From positions 1,015,501-1,079,500 of the forward strand of contig NZ_CP106753.1 of the NCBI RefSeq assembly GCF_025642115.1: a stretch of 64,000 nt of DNA, in the 5' to 3' direction. Positions 1-7,949 of this stretch are shown piece after piece (position 1 is the first letter of the stretch; each line of letters begins with the position of its first letter). The notes below the pieces were generated by a model. That model was given only the letters and a program-made list of their open reading frames with translations. It made no database searches and was not told where the DNA came from. The translations under genes and the position numbers were made by a program. The DNA comes from Chitiniphilus purpureus (GTDB lineage Bacteria > Pseudomonadota > Gammaproteobacteria > Burkholderiales > Chitinibacteraceae).

Positions 1-613
1 CAAGGAGGGGCAAAGCCTGATCCTGGCGGGGGCACTGATCTCGATCGCCTTCAATTCGCTGGTCTTCACCGCGATCGAACCGGCACAGCGCTGGATCCGT
101 TCGCGCTCCAGCATCGCGCGCCTTCTGGAACGGCCGGACGATCCGCTGGCCGAGCTGCCGATGGAGACCGATCAGCAGCTGTTGAGCGGGCAGGTGGTGC
201 TGGTCGGATACGGTCGCGTGGGCCGTCGGATCGGCGAGGCCCTGACCGCGCAAGGCGTGCCGTTCGTGGTGGCCGAGCAGAACCGCGAGATCGTCGAGAT
301 GCTGCGTGCGCAGGGCATACCGGCGGTCTCGGGCAATGCCGTCGAGCCGGCGGTGCTGATCCAGGCGCATGTCGCGCGCGCGGCAATGCTGGTGATCGCC
401 ACGCCCGATGCCTTCGGCGTGCGCAAGATGGTCGAGGTGGCCCGTATGCTGAATCCACCGATCGAGACGGTGGTGCGCACGCACAGCGAGGAGGAGGCCG
501 TGCTGTTGGTCAATGAGGCGGTCGGCCGGGTATTCATGGGCGAACAGGAGCTGGCCAAGGGCATGGCCCGCCATGTGCTCGAGCGGTTCGGCCGCGTTTC
601 GGCTGCGTCCTGA
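1..613 (+). CDS. Kef/YbaL-type monovalent cation:proton antiporter, C-terminal part (5' end outside window)
   Basis: Open reading frame entering from the left edge; the first full codon starts at base 2 and about 203 residues are visible. It begins in the last membrane helix of a CPA2 antiporter (LILAGALISIAFNSLVF), followed by a short basic linker and a RCK/TrkA-N domain with the nucleotide-binding motif GYGRVGRRIGEAL near visible residue 65. That order (CPA2 membrane domain, then NAD-binding TrkA-N) is the YbaL/KefB layout for potassium or cation efflux in the inner membrane gated by a cytoplasmic nucleotide sensor. No TrkA-C domain is obvious after it; the protein ends soon after the Rossmann fold, as in YbaL. 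The exact substrate cannot be read from the sequence. Confidence 0.85.
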   Translation, partial: KEGQSLILAGALISIAFNSLVFTAIEPAQRWIRSRSSIARLLERPDDPLAELPMETDQQLLSGQVVLVGYGRVGRRIGEALTAQGVPFVVAEQNREIVEMLRAQGIPAVSGNAVEPAVLIQAHVARAAMLVIATPDAFGVRKMVEVARMLNPPIETVVRTHSEEEAVLLVNEAVGRVFMGEQELAKGMARHVLERFGRVSAAS

Positions 614-801: not shown

Positions 802-3147
802 CTAGCGCCGGGCGGCGTCGGCAAAGCGGCGCGCGGCGTCCTGCGCGCCCATGTCGCGGCTGCCCCAATAGGCGCCGACCACGTCGAAGAACGCCGAGCG
901 CACGTTGTCCTGTACCGCCATGTTGTGTGCCCATGACGGCACCAACACACCCTTGCTGGCGGCATTGGCGAAATCCTTGGCCGACTGCCGGGCGTAGTCG
1001 TCGTAGCGGCGCAGGTCCACGTCGGTACGTGCCGGGATGTTGCCCTTGAAGAGGTTGAACACCTCCTGCCCTTCCTGGCTCATCAGCAGGCGAACGAAAT
1101 CGCGCTGTGCTTCGAGGCGCAGCGGATCGGTCTGCTTGAACATCGTCAGGGTGTCGGCGGCAAAACTGTAGTCGCCCGCCTGCGTGGGGGCCGGCCAGCA
1201 CAGGTAGTCCGTGCCCTGCTCCTTGCCGGCCTGCACGAACTCCGCTTTCGCCCAGTCGCCCATCAGCTGCATCGCGGCGCGGCCGTTGATCACGTCGGCA
1301 GTGGCAAGGTTCCAGTCGCGGCCCACCGGGTCGGGCGTCACGTAGGGCTTGAGCCGCTTCAGGGTCTCGAGCGCGCGGGTCATCGCGGCGCTGGTCAGCG
1401 CGCCCTGGTCCAGCTTGCTGAACGCGGCGCGGTAGAAGTCGGCGCCGCCCTGGCCGAGCGCGATCGCCTCGAACACCGTCGCCACCTGCCAGCTCTGCTC
1501 GCTGTGCGCCAGCGTGGCGATGCCGGCCTGCTTGAGCTTGTCCGCCATCGCGAAGAAATCGTCCCAGGTACGCGGCGGACGCAGGCCCAGGCGGTTCACG
1601 ATCTGCGCATTCACCCACAGCATGTTGGTGCGCGCGGTCCCAAGCGGCACCGCCACATATTGTCCGTTGTGCTGGATCATCTGGTCGAACACCGCGGGCA
1701 GTACCCGCGACCAGCCTTGCTCACGCGCGATCTCGGTCAGGTCGGCGCATACGCCGTCCTTGGCCCAGTTCTGGATCTTGACCCCGCCGATCGCCGCCGC
1801 GGTGGGTGGGTTGCCGGCGTCGATGCGGCTCCTGAGCGAGGCCATCGGATTGTCGCCGCCACCATGGGCGTCCATCCAGTGATGGCCCATCCGGTTGAGC
1901 AGCGCCTTCACTTCGGAGACGGCGCGTGCCTCGCTGGAGGCAAGCCACCAGTGCAGCACCTCGATGTCGGCAAGCTTGAAGCGGCCGACCTGGTCGAGCA
2001 GCCGCGCCGCCCGTTCGTCCAGCTGGTGCAACGTCTGCCCGGCCTGGTGCAGTGCCGAATCGGTGGCCTGGGTCATGTTGTTGATCTGTTCGGCCGACTG
2101 CGCCATCGTGGTGGTGGCCGAGGACTGCTCCAGCGTGGATTCGGCGATCTGCCGCACCGCCTCCACCACATGCGTCATGCGCTGGTTGATCTCGAGCATG
2201 TGCTGGCGCGCGCTGTCGGCGCTCGCGACGCTCTCGTTCACCTGGTCGGCAGTACTGCCCATGTTGTCCACCGCCTGCCGGGTTTCGCGCCCCACCGAGT
2301 CGATCATCCGCGTGATCTCCACGGTGGCCGATGCGGTACGCTCGGCGAGCTTGCGCACTTCGTCGGCCACGACGGCGAAGCCCCGGCCCTGTTCCCCGGC
2401 GCGCGCCGCTTCGATGGCGGCATTGAGCGCCAGTAGATTGGTCTGGTCGGCGATCTCCTTGATCACGCTGACGATGCCGCTGATTTCCTGCGAACGCTTG
2501 CCCAGGCCGTCCATGGTGGTGCCCAGCACCTGCATCGCCTGTGCCACACCGCCCACCTCCTGCGAGACGCGCCGCACGGCCTCGGCGCTGTCGGCCGAGA
2601 TCTGCTGGGTCTGCGAGACCACATCGTCCACGTCGCGCGCATTGTCGGCGATATGGGTGATGCTGACGGTGATCTGCTCGACGGTGGCCGCGGAGGAGGC
2701 GGCAAAGTCCGACTGCATCCGGGTGTCCTTGGCCATCTGCGCGGTGACGGCCGACAGCTCATGCAGGCCGATGGCAAGCCCTTCCATTTCACGCTGTACA
2801 TCGCGCAGCACACCCTGCTGACGGGCGACGAAGCCATTGAGTGCGCTGGCGGTGGCGCCGATCTCGTCATTGCCGGTGGCCGGCAGCCGCAGGTTCAGGT
2901 CCCCCCCTTCCTCGCCCAGTGCGCGCAGCGTATCGCGGATCTGCAGCAACGGTGCCAGCCCCCGGCCCGTGGCGAACACCACAGCCCCTGCCACCAGCGC
3001 CATACTGGCCAGCGCGATCAGCACCCCTATGGTGGCAATGCCGGACGGCACATCCCCCGCGGTGACGAGATAGCCGACGGTCGCCGCAAACCCAACCGCC
3101 ATCGCTGCGCACGACCAGCCTACGATACGGCTGCGAATCGACATCAT
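802..3147 (-). CDS. Methyl-accepting chemotaxis protein fused to a C-terminal sugar-ABC-type solute-binding domain
   Basis: 781 residues. Two membrane helices lie at about residues 6-27 and 36-58 with only a very short loop between, so there is no periplasmic sensor domain. A HAMP-like segment (about 60-115) and the MCP signalling coiled coil follow; the conserved hairpin tip ([20 protein letters not shown]) sits near residue 235. From about residue 392 the protein turns into a full family-1 solute-binding protein, strongly like glucose/mannose ABC binding proteins (EVLHWW at the start, later [25 protein letters not shown] and GDWAKAEF). By the helix count that domain would be cytoplasmic. 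Start chosen at 3147 because AGGAG lies 6 nt upstream; an in-frame ATG at 3240 lacks this. Chemotaxis or taxis signalling to sugar is inferred. No transporter genes are adjacent. Confidence 0.85.
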
Positions 3148-3655
3148 GGAGGTCTCCTGCTGAAATCCCGCGTCTGGGCGTCCTCCACCCGGATGCGAAA
3201 GGTGTATGACGCTTGACTCGGTATGTTTGATCATTGACACAAATTAATCTTACATCGTCCCGGCGGAGCTGGAAGCCTCAGGGCGATGACCGGCCATCCG
3301 GAGCGCAGGCTCTGCATATCTCCATATCAGGCTTGGCACCATGAGTGCTGCATCCAAAGAATAGCATGGGGTGTGCCCAGCGCTAATCCTGGGTTTTGCT
3401 ATTTCTCCAAGGTCATAAAATTCAATCGAGATTATTTTCTCGTTATGTAATATTTATAATGCGTGCAAGATTGTGCCTGCGTGGTGCGTGCAGTCACGCT
3501 GGCGCTGGCTGCTTCAAAGCGTGGTTGATAGTGTTTTGATTTGAAACAGGAATTATCGCCATGGCGAGTGGCGATCCGATGGTTATCGGTATGATTGGAC
3601 GGCAACGCAAGCCGAATTTCGTAAGGAAGTGTGGTGCCGGGCTGGCGCAAGACAT
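3148..3655. other. Non-coding AT-rich spacer upstream of the chemoreceptor gene
   Basis: About 500 bases between the chemoreceptor start and the tRNA terminator. The part around 3390-3470 is clearly AT-rich against the surrounding high-GC sequence. It should hold the chemoreceptor promoter, but no convincing sigma-28 or sigma-70 element was recognised. The short reading frames in it look like chance. Confidence 0.5.
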
Positions 3656-3695: not shown

Positions 3696-3780
3696 TGGTG
3701 CCGACAGTGAGACTCGAACTCACACAGCCGAAGCCACTACCCCCTCAAGATAGCGTGTCTACCAATTTCACCATGTCGGC
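3696..3780 (-). tRNA. tRNA-Leu, anticodon GAG
   Basis: 85-nt class II tRNA read on the minus strand. The acceptor stem GCCGACA pairs perfectly with TGTCGGC and is followed by an encoded CCA end. The T arm GTGAG-TTCGAGT-CTCAC is perfect, and the D arm has the usual GGTAGAC. The anticodon stem CTATC/GGTAG encloses the loop TTGAGGG, giving anticodon GAG (bases 3744-3746) and decoding of CUC/CUU leucine codons. A long variable arm is present, as expected for tRNA-Leu. Confidence 0.95.
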
Positions 3781-3852: not shown

Positions 3853-3971
3853 GCCACCCTGCGAGACAGCGGACAGTATCCTGCCTATGCCTGCCTTACG
3901 GCTACTTGCGGGCAAGGCCAATGGGTTAAAATGGTTGCACTCTTTTGCAAGTTTTCTGCTTACAGGCCCCC

Positions 3972-4922
3972 ATGTCCGATCTGTTGCGCGCCTGCCTTGA
4001 GCAGCACGGCCTCGCCGATCGCTTCCCGACCATCCTGGCGGAGCGTTACCCCCGTATCGCCGCCAGGGTCGCCGAGCTATGGGGCACGCCCATGCTCAGT
4101 GCCTACTTCGAGGAATTGCTGATCATGGACCGGCCGGACCGCCAGGGCTTTCCACCGGAGGTGGGCGCGGAGCTGATGACGTTGGCGTACGCTTACGACC
4201 AGATCGCGTTTCCGGCCATGCAGCAGGAAGATGTGTGGGCCCACGTGCATGACAAGGCGCGCCAGGAGCTGGCCGAGCAGGGGCTGGGCGCGACAGTGCG
4301 CGACTTCCACCAATGTGTCAGTCGCGGCGAGCACCACATCATCGGGCTGTTCCTGCGCGCGGGGCTGTCGGTGGAGGTGCGCGACGAGCAGGAGTGGACG
4401 CCGTTGATCCGCGCCTGTTTCGAAGGCAATGCGACGATGGCCGAGGCACTGATCCGCGCCGGTGCGAGCGTGCATGCGCAGGACGCGGACGGTTATGGGC
4501 CGTTGCACTGGGCCGCACTCAACGGGCAGGAGGGGCTGGCGCAGCTTCTGCTCTCGCACGGCGCGCGCGTGAATGCGCCCAACAAACATGGCTTCACACC
4601 GCTGATCCAGGCCGCCTCACGCGGCCATACCAAGCTGGTACGCCTGCTGATCTCGCTGGGGGGCAATGTCAACACCTGCACCGCCGAAGGCTGGACCGCG
4701 CTGCACAAGGCGGTGGCCAACGGACATCTGGATGCCGCGGTCGCCCTGCTGGACCACGGGGCCGATCCGCAGGCCAGGCATCAGGATGGCACCACGCCGC
4801 TGCAGATCGCCCAGCAGAGCAACCGACAGCGATTGCATCAGCTGCTGTCCATGGCTGCCAGCCTGCGGCAGCGGCGGCCGGAGTCGTACAATGCCGCCGC
4901 GCCGCCACAGGTCAAGAAGTAG
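3972..4922 (+). CDS. Ankyrin-repeat protein
   Basis: 316 residues, no signal peptide or membrane helix, so probably cytoplasmic. An N-terminal helical region of about 125 residues (MSDLLRACLEQHGLADRFP) is followed by four to five ankyrin repeats at about 125-290, with classic signatures such as GYGPLHWAALNGQEGLAQLL, GFTPLIQAASRGHTKLVRLL and GWTALHKAVANGHLDAAVAL. Ankyrin repeats bind partner proteins; the partner is unknown. The N-terminal part looks like domains that precede ankyrin repeats in proteobacterial housekeeping proteins, but I do not recognise a named family. The start was placed at the ATG followed by SDLL; an in-frame ATG 9 codons upstream is less likely. It converges on the hexosaminidase gene. 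Confidence 0.85.
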   Translation: MSDLLRACLEQHGLADRFPTILAERYPRIAARVAELWGTPMLSAYFEELLIMDRPDRQGFPPEVGAELMTLAYAYDQIAFPAMQQEDVWAHVHDKARQELAEQGLGATVRDFHQCVSRGEHHIIGLFLRAGLSVEVRDEQEWTPLIRACFEGNATMAEALIRAGASVHAQDADGYGPLHWAALNGQEGLAQLLLSHGARVNAPNKHGFTPLIQAASRGHTKLVRLLISLGGNVNTCTAEGWTALHKAVANGHLDAAVALLDHGADPQARHQDGTTPLQIAQQSNRQRLHQLLSMAASLRQRRPESYNAAAPPQVKK

Positions 4923-4987: not shown

Positions 4988-7498
4988 TCAGGCGCCGACC
5001 GTCACCGAGCGACCACGCCGGTTGGTGGTGGTGAAGGCGGCCACCTTCACCGTACCGGACACCGCCACCGGGCCGCTGTAGACAGGCGAGCTCAAGCCCG
5101 GCTCGCTGCCATCGGTGGTGTAGCGCAGCACCAGCCCCGGGTTTTCGACGTTGGCGCGCAATTGGCCGTTCTCCAGCACTGCGCCCGGTACCGGCACGCG
5201 ATAGCCGTAGCCACCGAGGAAACCGTCCAGCCGGGGCAGCTCGCGCTGGCCCAGCCGGTTGGCGAACTGGTTCCAGTCCGCGTCCATCCGCGCATTGCGC
5301 GCGGCGCGGTCGGCGATGGTGGTCCAGCCCGGATCGCTGGCCCAGGCCCGTTCGGCCAACGCGATCAGCCGCGGCATCGCGAGTTGCTCGACCCGCGCCG
5401 CACTGCGCGCGTTCTCACCCCACAGCTCGCCCTGGATGCCGATCACATTGGCGGCACCGGCTGCGGTCAGGCGCACCTTGTTGTCGAGCGAGTTGCCCAG
5501 ATCGTGCCCCATCAGGTTGACGGTGGCGGTGGTGTAGATGTCCAGCGGGCAGAATTCGAACGCCTTGCGGGTGTTGATGAAGCCGCCCCAGTAGTAACCG
5601 GGCTCCTGTGGATCCTTCTCGTAGGCCAGGTCGAAATACAGGTTGGTCACGTTGCACAGCACCACCTTGTAACCGGCGTTGGCGAGCTGATAGGCGAAAT
5701 CCTCCTGGCCCCAGCCCCAGACGTTGTTCCACACATAGGGCTGGAAGTTGGCGTCGACGAACTTGGGGTTGGGCTTGTGCACGTGCGCGCCGTCGACGAC
5801 GTCGTGGGTGAGGGCGATCTCCTCCCAGCCGCCGAAGGTGAGGTCATAGCGCTTGAGGATGTCGCGATAGCGGGCGAGGAAGTAGTCCTGCAGCTCGCGC
5901 GTGCTCTGCATGCCCTGCTGCTGCATGAAAGCCTGACACTTGGGCGATTTTTCCCAGACGCCAGCCGGCACCTCGTCGCCGCCAGTGTGCAGCGTCTTCC
6001 AGGTCGCGCCTGCCTCGGCGTACATCTCCTTCACATCACGGATCACCGTTTCGATGAAGTTGTACGCGCCGTCCGTGGCGATGCAGATCACGTTGTCGTG
6101 CCACAGCTGCACCGATTCGTAGGTCGAGGCGTCCTCCGCCTCGCCCAGCAGATACTGTTCGGCAGCGGCAGGCTGGCCGGCCTGCATCAGGCGCTCGTAG
6201 CGCACGTCCATCGCCTTGATCGCAGCGCGCGCGTGACCCGGCACGTCGAACTCGGGCACCACTTCGATATGGCGCGCGGTGGCGAACTTGAGGATCTCGA
6301 TGAAGTCGGCGCGGCTGTAGAACCCGGTGCCATGCGAGCCCTCCACCTGCGCGCCCGAGCCGAAGCAGGGCACCAGATTGTCGGTTTCGCTGGTGGTGAA
6401 GCCGCGCTTGCTGCCGATCTCGGTCAGTTCGGGCAGGGTCGGGATCTCGACACGCCAGCCTTCGTCATCGGTGAGGTGGAAGTGGAATTTGTTGAGCTTG
6501 TACAACGCCATGCACTCAAGCAGCCGCAGCACCGTCTGCTTGGACGAGAAATTGCGGCCTACGTCCAGGTGCATGCCGCGATAGGCAAAGCGCGGGGCGT
6601 CCTTGATCTCGCAGAACGGCACCACAAGCACCGGCTGCGGATTGCGCCAGACCTCGACAGGCAGCAGCTGGCGCAGTGTCTGGATGCCGTTGAACACGCC
6701 ATGGGCCGACGCACCGGTGATGACCACACCGTTGGCGTCCACCCGCAGCGTATAGGCTTCGTCGGGTGAGCCGTTCTCGCCGACCTCGGGGGTGCCCAGC
6801 TGCAGCACGATGCCCTGGCCGCTGGCGGCGCCGTGGAACTCGGCGCCGGTCAGGTCGCGCAGCGATTGCCGCAGAAAGGCCGCCTCCCGTTCCAGCGCCA
6901 CCGGAAACACCACGGGTACCGAGGCGTCGAGCGTGAAGGCGCCATTGCCGTAGCTGGCGCTCTGCGGGGTCGGGGTGATCTTGCCGACATCGGCGGCATC
7001 CAGCTGCGTCAGCCCGGCGTTGTCGGCATAACGGGTCGCCGCGGTCACGTAGGGCACTTTGTCGGCCAGCGAGCGGTTGCGTTGTTCGGGGCGGGTGAAC
7101 GGCACGATCTCGGGGTCGCCGATCACTTCGGCGTGTGCGCCTGGCGTGCCATCCCCGTAGACGAGATAGAACCCGAGCGGCGCGTCGGTTTCCTGGATCA
7201 CCCAAAAGAGGCCCACGTAGCGGATGGTGCGCGACTCACCCGGCGCCAGCGTGCCGAAATCGGTGGTGGGCACCAGCTTGGACAGGTCGCCGTTCACATG
7301 CTGGATCGCCACGCCGCCCGTCACCGACTCGGGTTTGATCTTGCGGCAGGTATTGAAGTAGAGCGCCCAGTCCGATCCTTCAAGCGGCTGCGCTGATCGG
7401 TTGGTGAGCGTGATTTCGGCCAGGAAGGTGTCGCCATCGTAATGGTTGGAAACGCATTCCCAGGTGAGCTTCAGTTGTGATCCAGCAGGACGGCTCAT
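4988..7498 (-). CDS. Family 20 glycoside hydrolase, beta-N-acetylhexosaminidase (chitobiase type)
   Basis: 836 residues with the full chitobiase architecture: an N-terminal carbohydrate-binding CHB_HEX domain (about 1-160), a GH20b alpha/beta domain (about 170-310), the GH20 TIM barrel (about 315-745) and a C-terminal Ig-like CHB_HEX_C domain ending NRRGRSVTVGA. The catalytic Asp-Glu pair is in HTGGDEVP (D508, E509), and RGMHLDVGRNF opens the barrel. It should cleave terminal GlcNAc from chitobiose and chito-oligosaccharides. The start at 7498 is supported by GGAG 7 nt upstream. The N-terminus (MSRPAGSQLKLTWE) is not a signal peptide or lipobox, unlike secreted family members, so cytoplasmic action or non-classical export is likely. 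Monocistronic, with a strong terminator. Confidence 0.93.
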   Translation of the reverse strand: MSRPAGSQLKLTWECVSNHYDGDTFLAEITLTNRSAQPLEGSDWALYFNTCRKIKPESVTGGVAIQHVNGDLSKLVPTTDFGTLAPGESRTIRYVGLFWVIQETDAPLGFYLVYGDGTPGAHAEVIGDPEIVPFTRPEQRNRSLADKVPYVTAATRYADNAGLTQLDAADVGKITPTPQSASYGNGAFTLDASVPVVFPVALEREAAFLRQSLRDLTGAEFHGAASGQGIVLQLGTPEVGENGSPDEAYTLRVDANGVVITGASAHGVFNGIQTLRQLLPVEVWRNPQPVLVVPFCEIKDAPRFAYRGMHLDVGRNFSSKQTVLRLLECMALYKLNKFHFHLTDDEGWRVEIPTLPELTEIGSKRGFTTSETDNLVPCFGSGAQVEGSHGTGFYSRADFIEILKFATARHIEVVPEFDVPGHARAAIKAMDVRYERLMQAGQPAAAEQYLLGEAEDASTYESVQLWHDNVICIATDGAYNFIETVIRDVKEMYAEAGATWKTLHTGGDEVPAGVWEKSPKCQAFMQQQGMQSTRELQDYFLARYRDILKRYDLTFGGWEEIALTHDVVDGAHVHKPNPKFVDANFQPYVWNNVWGWGQEDFAYQLANAGYKVVLCNVTNLYFDLAYEKDPQEPGYYWGGFINTRKAFEFCPLDIYTTATVNLMGHDLGNSLDNKVRLTAAGAANVIGIQGELWGENARSAARVEQLAMPRLIALAERAWASDPGWTTIADRAARNARMDADWNQFANRLGQRELPRLDGFLGGYGYRVPVPGAVLENGQLRANVENPGLVLRYTTDGSEPGLSSPVYSGPVAVSGTVKVAAFTTTNRRGRSVTVGA

Positions 7499-7949
7499 CG
7501 GTCTACTCCAGATAATCGGTATGAGGCACAAGGATGGAACGGCGCCGCTGCGCCGTAAGAATCGGTTCGCATCCTGCCGGGCGTCCGGTGGGCAGGCTCA
7601 GCGCAGCAACCGCGGTTGACCTAAGGTCTAAGGGGGTTCATGCGCCGTAGGGGCCCCATGGCAGGATCGTGAACAGCTTCAAAATGGATGCAGGGGGTGA
7701 CGGTCAGTGTAGAGCGATTGCCTTACACCTGCCAGCATCGACATTGCTCAGATTGTCGCGTGCGGTTGCCGCCCCGCCAAGTGCGCTGCTGCGATGCAGC
7801 GACGCCTGCGGGCAGGCTGCACGTGCCGGTATCGCAGGGCGGCGCTGCGGGCTTTCCGGTATCATGACGGCCTGGAAAATCATGAGGGCGTGCCGTCGCC
7901 GAGCCGCATGCGCTGTCCCTCATCGCTGAACTGAACGGACCCGAACACC
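7499..7949. other. Divergent intergenic region, hexosaminidase / purL
   Basis: 450 bases between divergent genes. It must contain both promoters, but no convincing -35/-10 pair, operator or riboswitch was recognised by eye. The short reading frames here have no protein-like features. Confidence 0.4.

Follow-up and report, generated by a model that had tools for sequence, protein, structure and literature searches.

A single gene in the window, i.e., the whole 64,000-nucleotide stretch of Chitiniphilus purpureus DNA that was analysed, encodes a methyl-accepting chemotaxis protein (MCP) that continues in frame into a full solute-binding protein (SBP) fold of the glucose-binding protein (GBP) group. 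We consider it probable that this fusion is a chemoreceptor anchored in the membrane and equipped with an SBP sensor that has been relocated to the cytoplasm, and that it reports an internal ligand, likely a carbohydrate. The common view is that bacteria assess sugars chiefly from the outside, by means of periplasmic SBPs, or by the flux of PTS transport. If this reading is true, a complete internal SBP would measure an internal ligand directly, and signals would be able to enter an MCP bundle from its C-terminal helix by way of a large two-lobed domain.

In the list of open reading frames, the gene is a single uninterrupted frame on the minus strand, and the ATG given in Table 1 is preferred as its start over an in-frame GTG at 3240. 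Matches to the Pfam domains HAMP (residues 59-109; 37.1 bits against a cut-off of 25), MCPsignal (PF00015, residues 208-359; 2.3e-44), SBP_bac_1 (residues 431-695; 4.8e-27) and SBP_bac_8 (residues 435-712; 1e-23) all exceed the curated cut-offs. An AlphaFold2 model built from a 62-row alignment of fusion proteins (pLDDT 82.3, pTM 0.61) has helices at residues 4-29 and 35-78, the second of which continues into HAMP, and an external loop of only approximately 5-8 residues between the membrane helices; there is no periplasmic domain. Pfam and the model thus agree with the first-pass annotation of this DNA, made from the letters alone, in its observation of an MCP fused to an SBP, in the order of the parts (membrane helices, HAMP, MCP, SBP) and in the absence of a periplasmic sensor, for which it had noted a loop of about 8 residues.

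The N-terminal membrane part is the least conserved region of the protein (mean majority frequency 0.39 over residues 2-59). At the hairpin tip, residues 235-251 and 254-257 are invariant among the 62 aligned fusions listed, with residue 238 nearly so. A scan of the fusion protein for methylation motifs returned two relaxed matches, at 178 and 337, and zero strict ones, and the window genome has 13 CheW-domain matches. The SBP half matches known structures over nearly its full length in sequence (5dvf, 1.7e-96; 4r2b, 2.3e-89; 8hqq, 4.8e-88), and in a Foldseek search the best match was 5dvj (E 1.1e-39), followed by 5xpj, 4r2b, 8kd0 and 8hqq. The entry titles of these fold matches name the P. 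putida ppGBP, Oant_3817 with bound glucose, and SAR11_0769.

Table 1. Features of the fusion gene and its surroundings (nucleotide positions of the window)
Feature	Position	Strand	Remarks
Whole MCP-SBP fusion gene	802..3147	(-)	781 aa; ATG 3147-3145, stop 804-802
Two N-terminal membrane helices, residues ~4-29 and ~35-58	2974..3138	(-)	Hydrophobicity and AlphaFold2 model
HAMP domain, residues 59-109	2821..2973	(-)	Pfam
MCPsignal domain, residues 208-359, with conserved hairpin tip (region 235-265)	2071..2526	(-)	Pfam and alignment
Antiparallel coiled coil, helices 95-249 and 251-388	1984..2865	(-)	AlphaFold2 model
Junction, from end of coiled-coil helix (388) to start of SBP (394)	1966..1986	(-)	Model and alignment
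C-terminal glucose-binding-protein-type SBP domain, residues 394-781	805..1968	(-)	Pfam, sequence and fold matches
Residues 452-454 (Ala, Ile, Gly): Gln90 to Ala452, Lys92 to Gly454	1786..1794	(-)	Alignment
Residues 663-665: Asn301 to Ala663; Asp303 kept as Asp665	1153..1161	(-)	Alignment
Tyr718, where exported relatives have the second cysteine (Cys356)	994..996	(-)	Alignment
tRNA-Leu	3696-3780		Upstream of the fusion gene start
Ankyrin-repeat gene	3945-4922		Beyond the tRNA-Leu
Family-20 beta-hexosaminidase (GH20)	4988-7531		Beyond the ankyrin-repeat gene
Gene end with TrkA_N	161-613		Other side of the fusion gene

The full architecture was found at E<=1e-150 in 35 of the 43 genomes of the window's family, spread over 10 of its 11 genera, and 16 of the 35 carry two fusion copies; the eight genomes without a match are all three of one genus (g8) and five of the nine of another (g9). 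A sequencing error is ruled out by this intact architecture across the family. The stop or frameshift near the junction that the first-pass annotation had named as a sign of two wrongly joined genes was not encountered, all 51 copies listed from family genomes being free of internal stops. The broader explanation, that a sequencing or assembly artefact joined two genes, has practically no chance of being right, given a one-frame fusion in genomes of so many genera and a junction of fixed length in 62 of 62 aligned fusions among the matches listed.

Named isolates with the fusion among the matches listed belong to Chitiniphilus, Chitinolyticbacter, Andreprevotia, Chitinibacter, Chitinilyticum, Deefgea, Silvimonas, Amantichitinum, Jeongeupia and Iodobacter. 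All ten genera are Chitinibacteraceae, order Neisseriales, in the NCBI taxonomy, and since the named carriers all belong there we take the window's family to be Chitinibacteraceae. In a sample of the order, 13 of 399 genomes have the fusion at E<=1e-125, all of them from the window's family; in samples of the class (1 of 369) and the phylum (1 of 398), at E<=1e-123, the only match is the window's own genome. No fusion was thus found outside the family in these partial samples at these cut-offs, which would miss a much more divergent fusion or one with another class of SBP. A fusion is also present on two MAG contigs with other labels, L077 (Janthinobacterium sp.) and L071 ('Proteobacteria bacterium'), which would speak against strict restriction to the family. 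Both encode a protein with 89-90% identity to the Iodobacter fusion (P0043) and 97% to a metagenomic one (P0037), so the labels are likely wrong, perhaps through misbinning. The first-pass annotation had asked whether relatives occur only in chitin- or sugar-degrading Neisseriales, and the taxonomy places the fusion in a chitin-associated family of that order. Several further fusions come from metagenomes with no taxon given (P0056-P0059, P0061, P0062, P0066 and P0084). Where a source name is given, the listed fusions are mostly named 'extracellular solute-binding protein' or sugar transport substrate-binding protein; one (P0011) is named 'Methyl-accepting chemotaxis protein'. Apparent tandem fusions at L062 and L071 were discarded, as the extra matches are proteins of 543 and 547 residues that end like ordinary MCPs.

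By the Nei-Gojobori method, dN/dS in the SBP half is approximately 0.1 (dN 0.063-0.085 against dS 0.61-0.77), and dN is lower in the SBP half than in the MCP half in seven of seven rows compared; these rows represent four distinct genomes, as the pairs L021/L051, L023/L050 and L024/L052 give identical figures. Judged by these substitution rates, the SBP half is under purifying selection. For residue counts, fusions and standalone SBPs were taken from the best 120 of 210 proteins at E<=1e-20, to which the counts apply; they comprise 63 fusions, including P0054 (545 residues, odd at W35/W36 and perhaps truncated), which the 62-row alignment omits, and 57 standalones. A second search, of which the best 120 of 5530 proteins at E<=1e-30 were used and to which its counts apply, supplied 111 different standalones, with P0121 and P0122 (fusion residues where covered, probably fusion fragments) left out.

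Having established the architecture, we analyzed on which side of the membrane the SBP would lie. Membrane-length hydrophobic segments are confined to the first ~71 residues of the 62 aligned fusions listed, and the Kyte-Doolittle scan revealed no clear membrane span after that point in any of them. Beyond residue 100 the highest 19-residue mean is 1.66, and borderline peaks (1.61-1.66) occur in 4 of the 62, inside the SBP fold. The same type of scan found no signal sequence at the junction of the listed fusions: borderline 19-residue peaks are seen there in 0 of 62, and the 11-residue hydrophobicity peaks at 1.45, with a median of 0.7. A hydrophobic N-terminus (11-residue mean of at least 1.6) is present in 109 of the 111 standalones listed.

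Standalone SBPs conserve a pair of cysteines (positions 288 and 356 of ppGBP) that presumably form a disulfide. Cys356 is present in 54 of the 57 and in all 111 of the further standalones listed; at this position, 63 of 63 listed fusions have Tyr, and Cys288 is kept in 25 of the 63. Loss of a disulfide partner is expected for a domain moved into a reducing compartment. Because there is neither a later membrane span nor a signal sequence, and because the second cysteine is lost, we infer that the SBP domain very probably lies in the cytoplasm, as the first-pass annotation had proposed. That the C-terminal domain is instead translocated and works in the periplasm like the usual SBPs is what its family name and its homology to exported proteins would lead one to expect; nevertheless, this is very improbable in view of the hydrophobicity profile, the cysteine lost in every listed fusion, and an MCP tip that has to be cytoplasmic to contact CheA and CheW.

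According to the excerpted text of PMC7927077, glucose is contacted in the GBP of P. putida CSV86 by W35, W36, E41, G68, Q90 and K92, and further by W250, W270, N301, D303, K339 and H379; pocket residues are given in this ppGBP numbering throughout. Among the listed fusions, six of the twelve contacts are fixed or nearly so, i.e., W270, D303, K339 and H379 (63 of 63), W36 (62 of 63) and W250 (61 of 63). Three others, Q90, N301 and K92, are replaced: Ala occupies position 90 in all 63 fusions, where all 57 standalones have Gln, and position 301 in all 63, where 52 of the 57 have Asn; position 92 holds Gly in 52, Ala in 7 and Arg in 4 fusions, as opposed to Lys in 56 of 57 standalones (matches listed). 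Of the 63 fusions, just 20 still have W35 and 29 still have E41. The window protein retains nine of the twelve contacts (its changes being Q90A, K92G and N301A) and lacks the full 12-contact set of a glucose-binding SBP of the GtsA/GltB group. Other residues specific to the listed fusions are N141G (60 of 62), H143A (56 of 62), G188E (57 of 62) and M256D (62 of 62). The ppGBP itself has Glu at 256.

Relative to the SBP domain as a whole, the pocket is strongly conserved: 7 of its 12 positions, two of them fixed replacements by Ala, are at least 97% identical among the listed fusions, versus 18% of all SBP columns. On this alignment, the pocket is kept as a pocket but altered, and is not simply a preserved glucose pocket. 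Most of the former contacts that changed became smaller residues, which suggests a site for something bigger than, or shaped unlike, glucose; judging from these residue sizes, the ligand probably has that character. A carbohydrate is likely, while plain glucose, which we set aside as the default ligand because of Q90A, K92G and N301A, is doubtful by the residues present.

A tree splits the 62 listed fusions three ways: the window's own group has 25 members, a larger group of paralogues 33 and a small third group 4. All 25 of the first and all 4 of the third retain E41, whereas the 33 of the larger group have Gly (27 proteins) or Asp (6 proteins) there; W35 is Trp in 16 of 25, 0 of 33 and 4 of 4 members of the window's, larger and third groups, respectively (matches listed). 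In Deefgea tanakiae, Chitinilyticum piscinae, C. litopenaei and Chitinibacter tainanensis, each large group is represented by one protein, so receptors with different pockets coexist in these species. The claim of the first-pass annotation that the binding domain is unusually well preserved therefore has to be revised: Q90, K92 and N301 are replaced in every listed fusion and W35 and E41 are lost throughout the larger group. What stands of it is the fold and the six retained contacts; the full glucose pocket does not. Likewise, its proposal of a receptor for internal sugar levels is upheld as regards an internal receptor, with a sugar as the likely ligand and plain glucose as a less likely one.

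The SBPs of the fusions form one clade, with an SH-aLRT support of 100 in a tree with 62 fusion rows (matches listed), which carries a long-branch warning at S_P0089 and the fusion group, and a support of 100/99 in a second tree of hand-chosen rows (14 of the 63 fusions, 20 of the 111 and 9 of the 57 standalones, together with ppGBP, the genome's own GBP, L004 and L075). A single fusion event thus suffices. Among the chosen rows, their nearest relatives are two SBPs from metagenomic contigs (P0123 and P0124) and two from Jeongeupia (P0129 and P0141), with support 99/100; the branching order inside this joint group is weak (91/65). All four have a signal-peptide-like start and both cysteines and are without an MCP. 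In the scan of the standalones listed, these four were the only full-length proteins with a residue other than Gln at 90 or with Ala at 301: Q90 is replaced by T, A, M and A and N301 by A, A, D and D, K92 by G, and they have N141G and Ala or Ser at H143. Since these exported relatives share much of the pocket change and keep the cysteines, the change came before the move inside, for the most part at least, and Cys356 was lost with the move. The move inside was rejected as the cause of the pocket change, much of the change being common to the exported relatives.

Matches to P0129 at E<=1e-140 occur in only 2 of the 43 family genomes, G036 and G037 of the Jeongeupia group. Here, the gene for the exported SBP comes after ftsK, and on its other side lie a LysR gene and a sodium:solute symporter gene (Pfam scan of G037), the neighbours in G036 being 93-95% identical to those in G037. 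A search with one permease query revealed no relative of the GBP permease in either 17.5-kb stretch around this gene. An exported SBP with no adjoining permease gene points, tentatively, to sensing instead of transport. The exported relatives offer a stepwise record, from pocket change to fusion with loss of the second cysteine to duplication, that makes the origin of a sensor testable.

It could also be argued that the SBP is inside the cell but does not sense, and serves as a module for protein-protein interaction or packing with a vestigial pocket, for example by docking a cytoplasmic enzyme or transporter subunit or by organising the array. We regard this as unlikely. The three contacts replaced in all 63 listed fusions, the loss of W35 and E41 from all 33 listed members of the larger group and of W35 from 9 of the 25 in the window's own group, and the lack of an ABC or metabolic operon around the fusion gene are what such a module would show. 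A vestigial pocket is, however, difficult to reconcile with the retention of W270, D303, K339, H379 and W36 or with pocket positions conserved well beyond the SBP columns in general, and an altered pocket largely common to exported relatives was not simply relaxed after the move inside.

The SBP is attached at the end of the receptor where ordinary MCPs such as Tsr have a flexible tail. No indel interrupts residues 94-430 in the alignment of the 62 listed fusions; this longest indel-free stretch (337 residues) takes in the entire coiled coil, the junction and the beginning of the SBP. Indels lie in the membrane part and HAMP, at 431-435, beyond 521 and in further loops of the SBP. All 62 have 54 residues in the segment 341-394, and in the AlphaFold2 model the helix 251-388 stops six residues short of the first SBP strand (395-398). 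This constant helix-to-strand joint suggests that movement of the SBP would be passed directly to the C-terminal helix. The fixed junction might also serve as a natural template for mounting other binding proteins on chemoreceptors.

We therefore envisage the following sequence of events for the internal receptor that we favour. The two membrane helices would only anchor the dimer in the array. The SBP would hang from the returning C-terminal helix of the coiled coil, beside HAMP and near the inner face of the membrane, at a level estimated from the helix pairing in the model. A small cytoplasmic ligand, most likely a carbohydrate from uptake or from intracellular hydrolysis, would bind between the SBP lobes, and closure or re-packing of the lobes would shift the C-terminal helix rigidly joined to strand 1. 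The shift would travel down the bundle to the CheA/CheW tip, altering CheA activity, so that the receptor would report internal, not external, ligand. A more specific version, which we offer as speculation, is that the lineage steers by an internal product of chitin breakdown (e.g., N-acetylglucosamine or chitobiose): an exported, probably sensory SBP would have gained a roomier pocket, become rigidly joined, in a single capture, to the C-terminal helix of an MCP, and then been duplicated to yield receptors that differ in their pockets. The result would be direct taxis towards intracellular carbohydrate by means of a full-size flytrap domain. The identity of the ligand decides how interesting the fusion is.

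We further analyzed the gene neighbourhood in 27 fusion loci (26 and the window), using frames of at least 110 aa and flanks of up to 8 kb, several of them shorter. Clustering of these frames revealed no neighbour family common to more than 6 of the 27 loci, and the neighbours gave no clue to the ligand across the 27. The GH20 gene lies beside the receptor gene in four loci, i.e., the window, two of Chitiniphilus and one of Chitinolyticbacter. With a single query, the permease beside the genome's own GBP gene, a linked ABC permease was matched in 1 of the 27 fusion loci (L056, 25% identity, ~5 kb away); the two standalone-SBP loci L075 and L076, used as positive controls, matched. The fusion SBP has neither an export signal nor a neighbouring permease gene. 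The window genome additionally encodes a conventional exported GBP, which has 11 of the 12 contacts (Ala replaces G68) and whose gene lies between a porin gene and a permease gene, as well as a second exported SBP (L004) and two PTS EIIC matches.

These data bear on the idea that the receptor senses external sugar indirectly, in that the SBP captures the flux from a nearby PTS or ABC transporter and reports the rate of uptake. Such a role would suit an SBP estimated from helix pairing to be level with HAMP near the membrane, in a genome with PTS EIIC matches and with a GBP gene between porin and permease genes. We consider it more doubtful than the packing module, as the permease query revealed no conserved transporter linkage; moreover, PTS sugars enter the cell phosphorylated, and a pocket that has lost Lys92 does not look like one for a phosphate group.

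Several known systems share features with the internal receptor proposed here. Periplasmic GBPs, i.e., ppGBP (5dvf/5dvj), Oant_3817 of O. anthropi (4r2b) and SAR11_0769 of Pelagibacter (8hqq), have the same fold over nearly the full length, with 39-42% identity in the structure match, and W36, W250, W270, D303, K339 and H379 are common to them and the fusion. In contrast to them, the fusion is without a signal peptide, an adjoining permease gene and the second cysteine, has Q90, K92 and N301 replaced, and carries its SBP behind an MCP. The exported SBPs of Jeongeupia (P0129, P0141) and of metagenomes (P0123, P0124) share much of the altered pocket with the fusion, but differ in their signal-peptide-like start, both cysteines and lack of an MCP.

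In E. coli, Tar senses maltose-binding protein. The GltB of P. aeruginosa binds the sensor domains of GtrS, PctA and PA2788, as described in the excerpts of PMC7927077. In both systems, as far as these accounts go, an SBP feeds a chemoreceptor, as in the fusion, but it is a separate protein that acts from outside on a periplasmic sensor domain, whereas the SBP of the fusion is covalent, internal and at the other end of the receptor.

Sensors that follow the signalling domain have precedents as well. In the passages that describe them, TlpD-type CZB receptors (PMC12871147) and DcrH with its C-terminal hemerythrin (PMC13401364) have this arrangement, and in them, as in the fusion, the signal must enter via the C-terminal helix. 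The domains described there are small helical binders of zinc or oxygen, as opposed to a two-lobed SBP of ~390 residues; furthermore, TlpD is soluble and DcrH has a periplasmic domain, and the fusion has neither trait. More broadly, the excerpts of PMC7390727 count at least 17 types of ligand-binding domain at MCP C-termini, and together with those of PMC13401364 and PMC12871147 provide precedents for C-terminal cytosolic sensor domains, while the part of PMC9602780 on SBP Pfam domains reports many such proteins as cytosolic or as sensor domains of signalling proteins. In the open-licence literature searched, a scope outside which the supplementary domain list of PMC7390727 lies, no MCP with a C-terminal SBP was found. 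Our fusion has a sensor-type domain after MCPsignal, with no clear membrane span between or after them, and the intact hairpin tip, membrane anchor and HAMP of an MCP. Thus, it belongs with the MCPs already known to carry a cytosolic ligand-binding domain at the C-terminus, and what it adds to that class is a complete SBP with a remodelled pocket.

The larger group of fusions comprised 33 of the 62 aligned fusion proteins (P0026-P0028, P0030-P0033, P0036-P0039 and P0041-P0053, together with others). In this group, numbering by the Pseudomonas putida glucose-binding protein (GBP), glucose-contact position W35 is occupied by Gly or Ser and E41 by Gly or Asp. Since 16 of the 35 Chitinibacteraceae genomes carrying a fusion have two copies, a second ligand may be involved.

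Among the rows compared, the nearest relative of the fused SBP domain was the exported standalone SBP of the Jeongeupia group, whose pocket is altered. Its gene directly follows ftsK in both loci; the 17.5 kb fetched around it contained nothing related to the GBP permease. The window genome encodes a second exported SBP, ~13 kb past the right end of the window, in a stretch (C1:1083530-1102646) where several matches to MCP and CheW domains also lie; this stretch is possibly a chemosensory cluster with a binding protein of its own.

Features near the receptor gene and at related loci
Feature	Position	Strand	Domains or group
Family-20 β-hexosaminidase, chitobiase type	window 4988-7531	-	CHB_HEX, GH20, CHB_HEX_C
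Second exported SBP	L004 1198-2673; G000:C1:1092287	+	GBP group
Exported standalone SBP	L089 8029-9303	-	Jeongeupia group
Exported standalone SBP	L090 8129-9406	-	Jeongeupia group

The β-hexosaminidase gene lies ~2 kb from the receptor gene, a linkage seen at only 4 of the 27 fusion loci. Inspection by eye revealed no obvious signal peptide at its listed ORF start, so the enzyme might be cytoplasmic and liberate GlcNAc inside the cell.

Among the matches listed, most named fusions are labeled in public records as extracellular or periplasmic binding proteins, which conceals both the MCP part and the probable cytoplasmic location.
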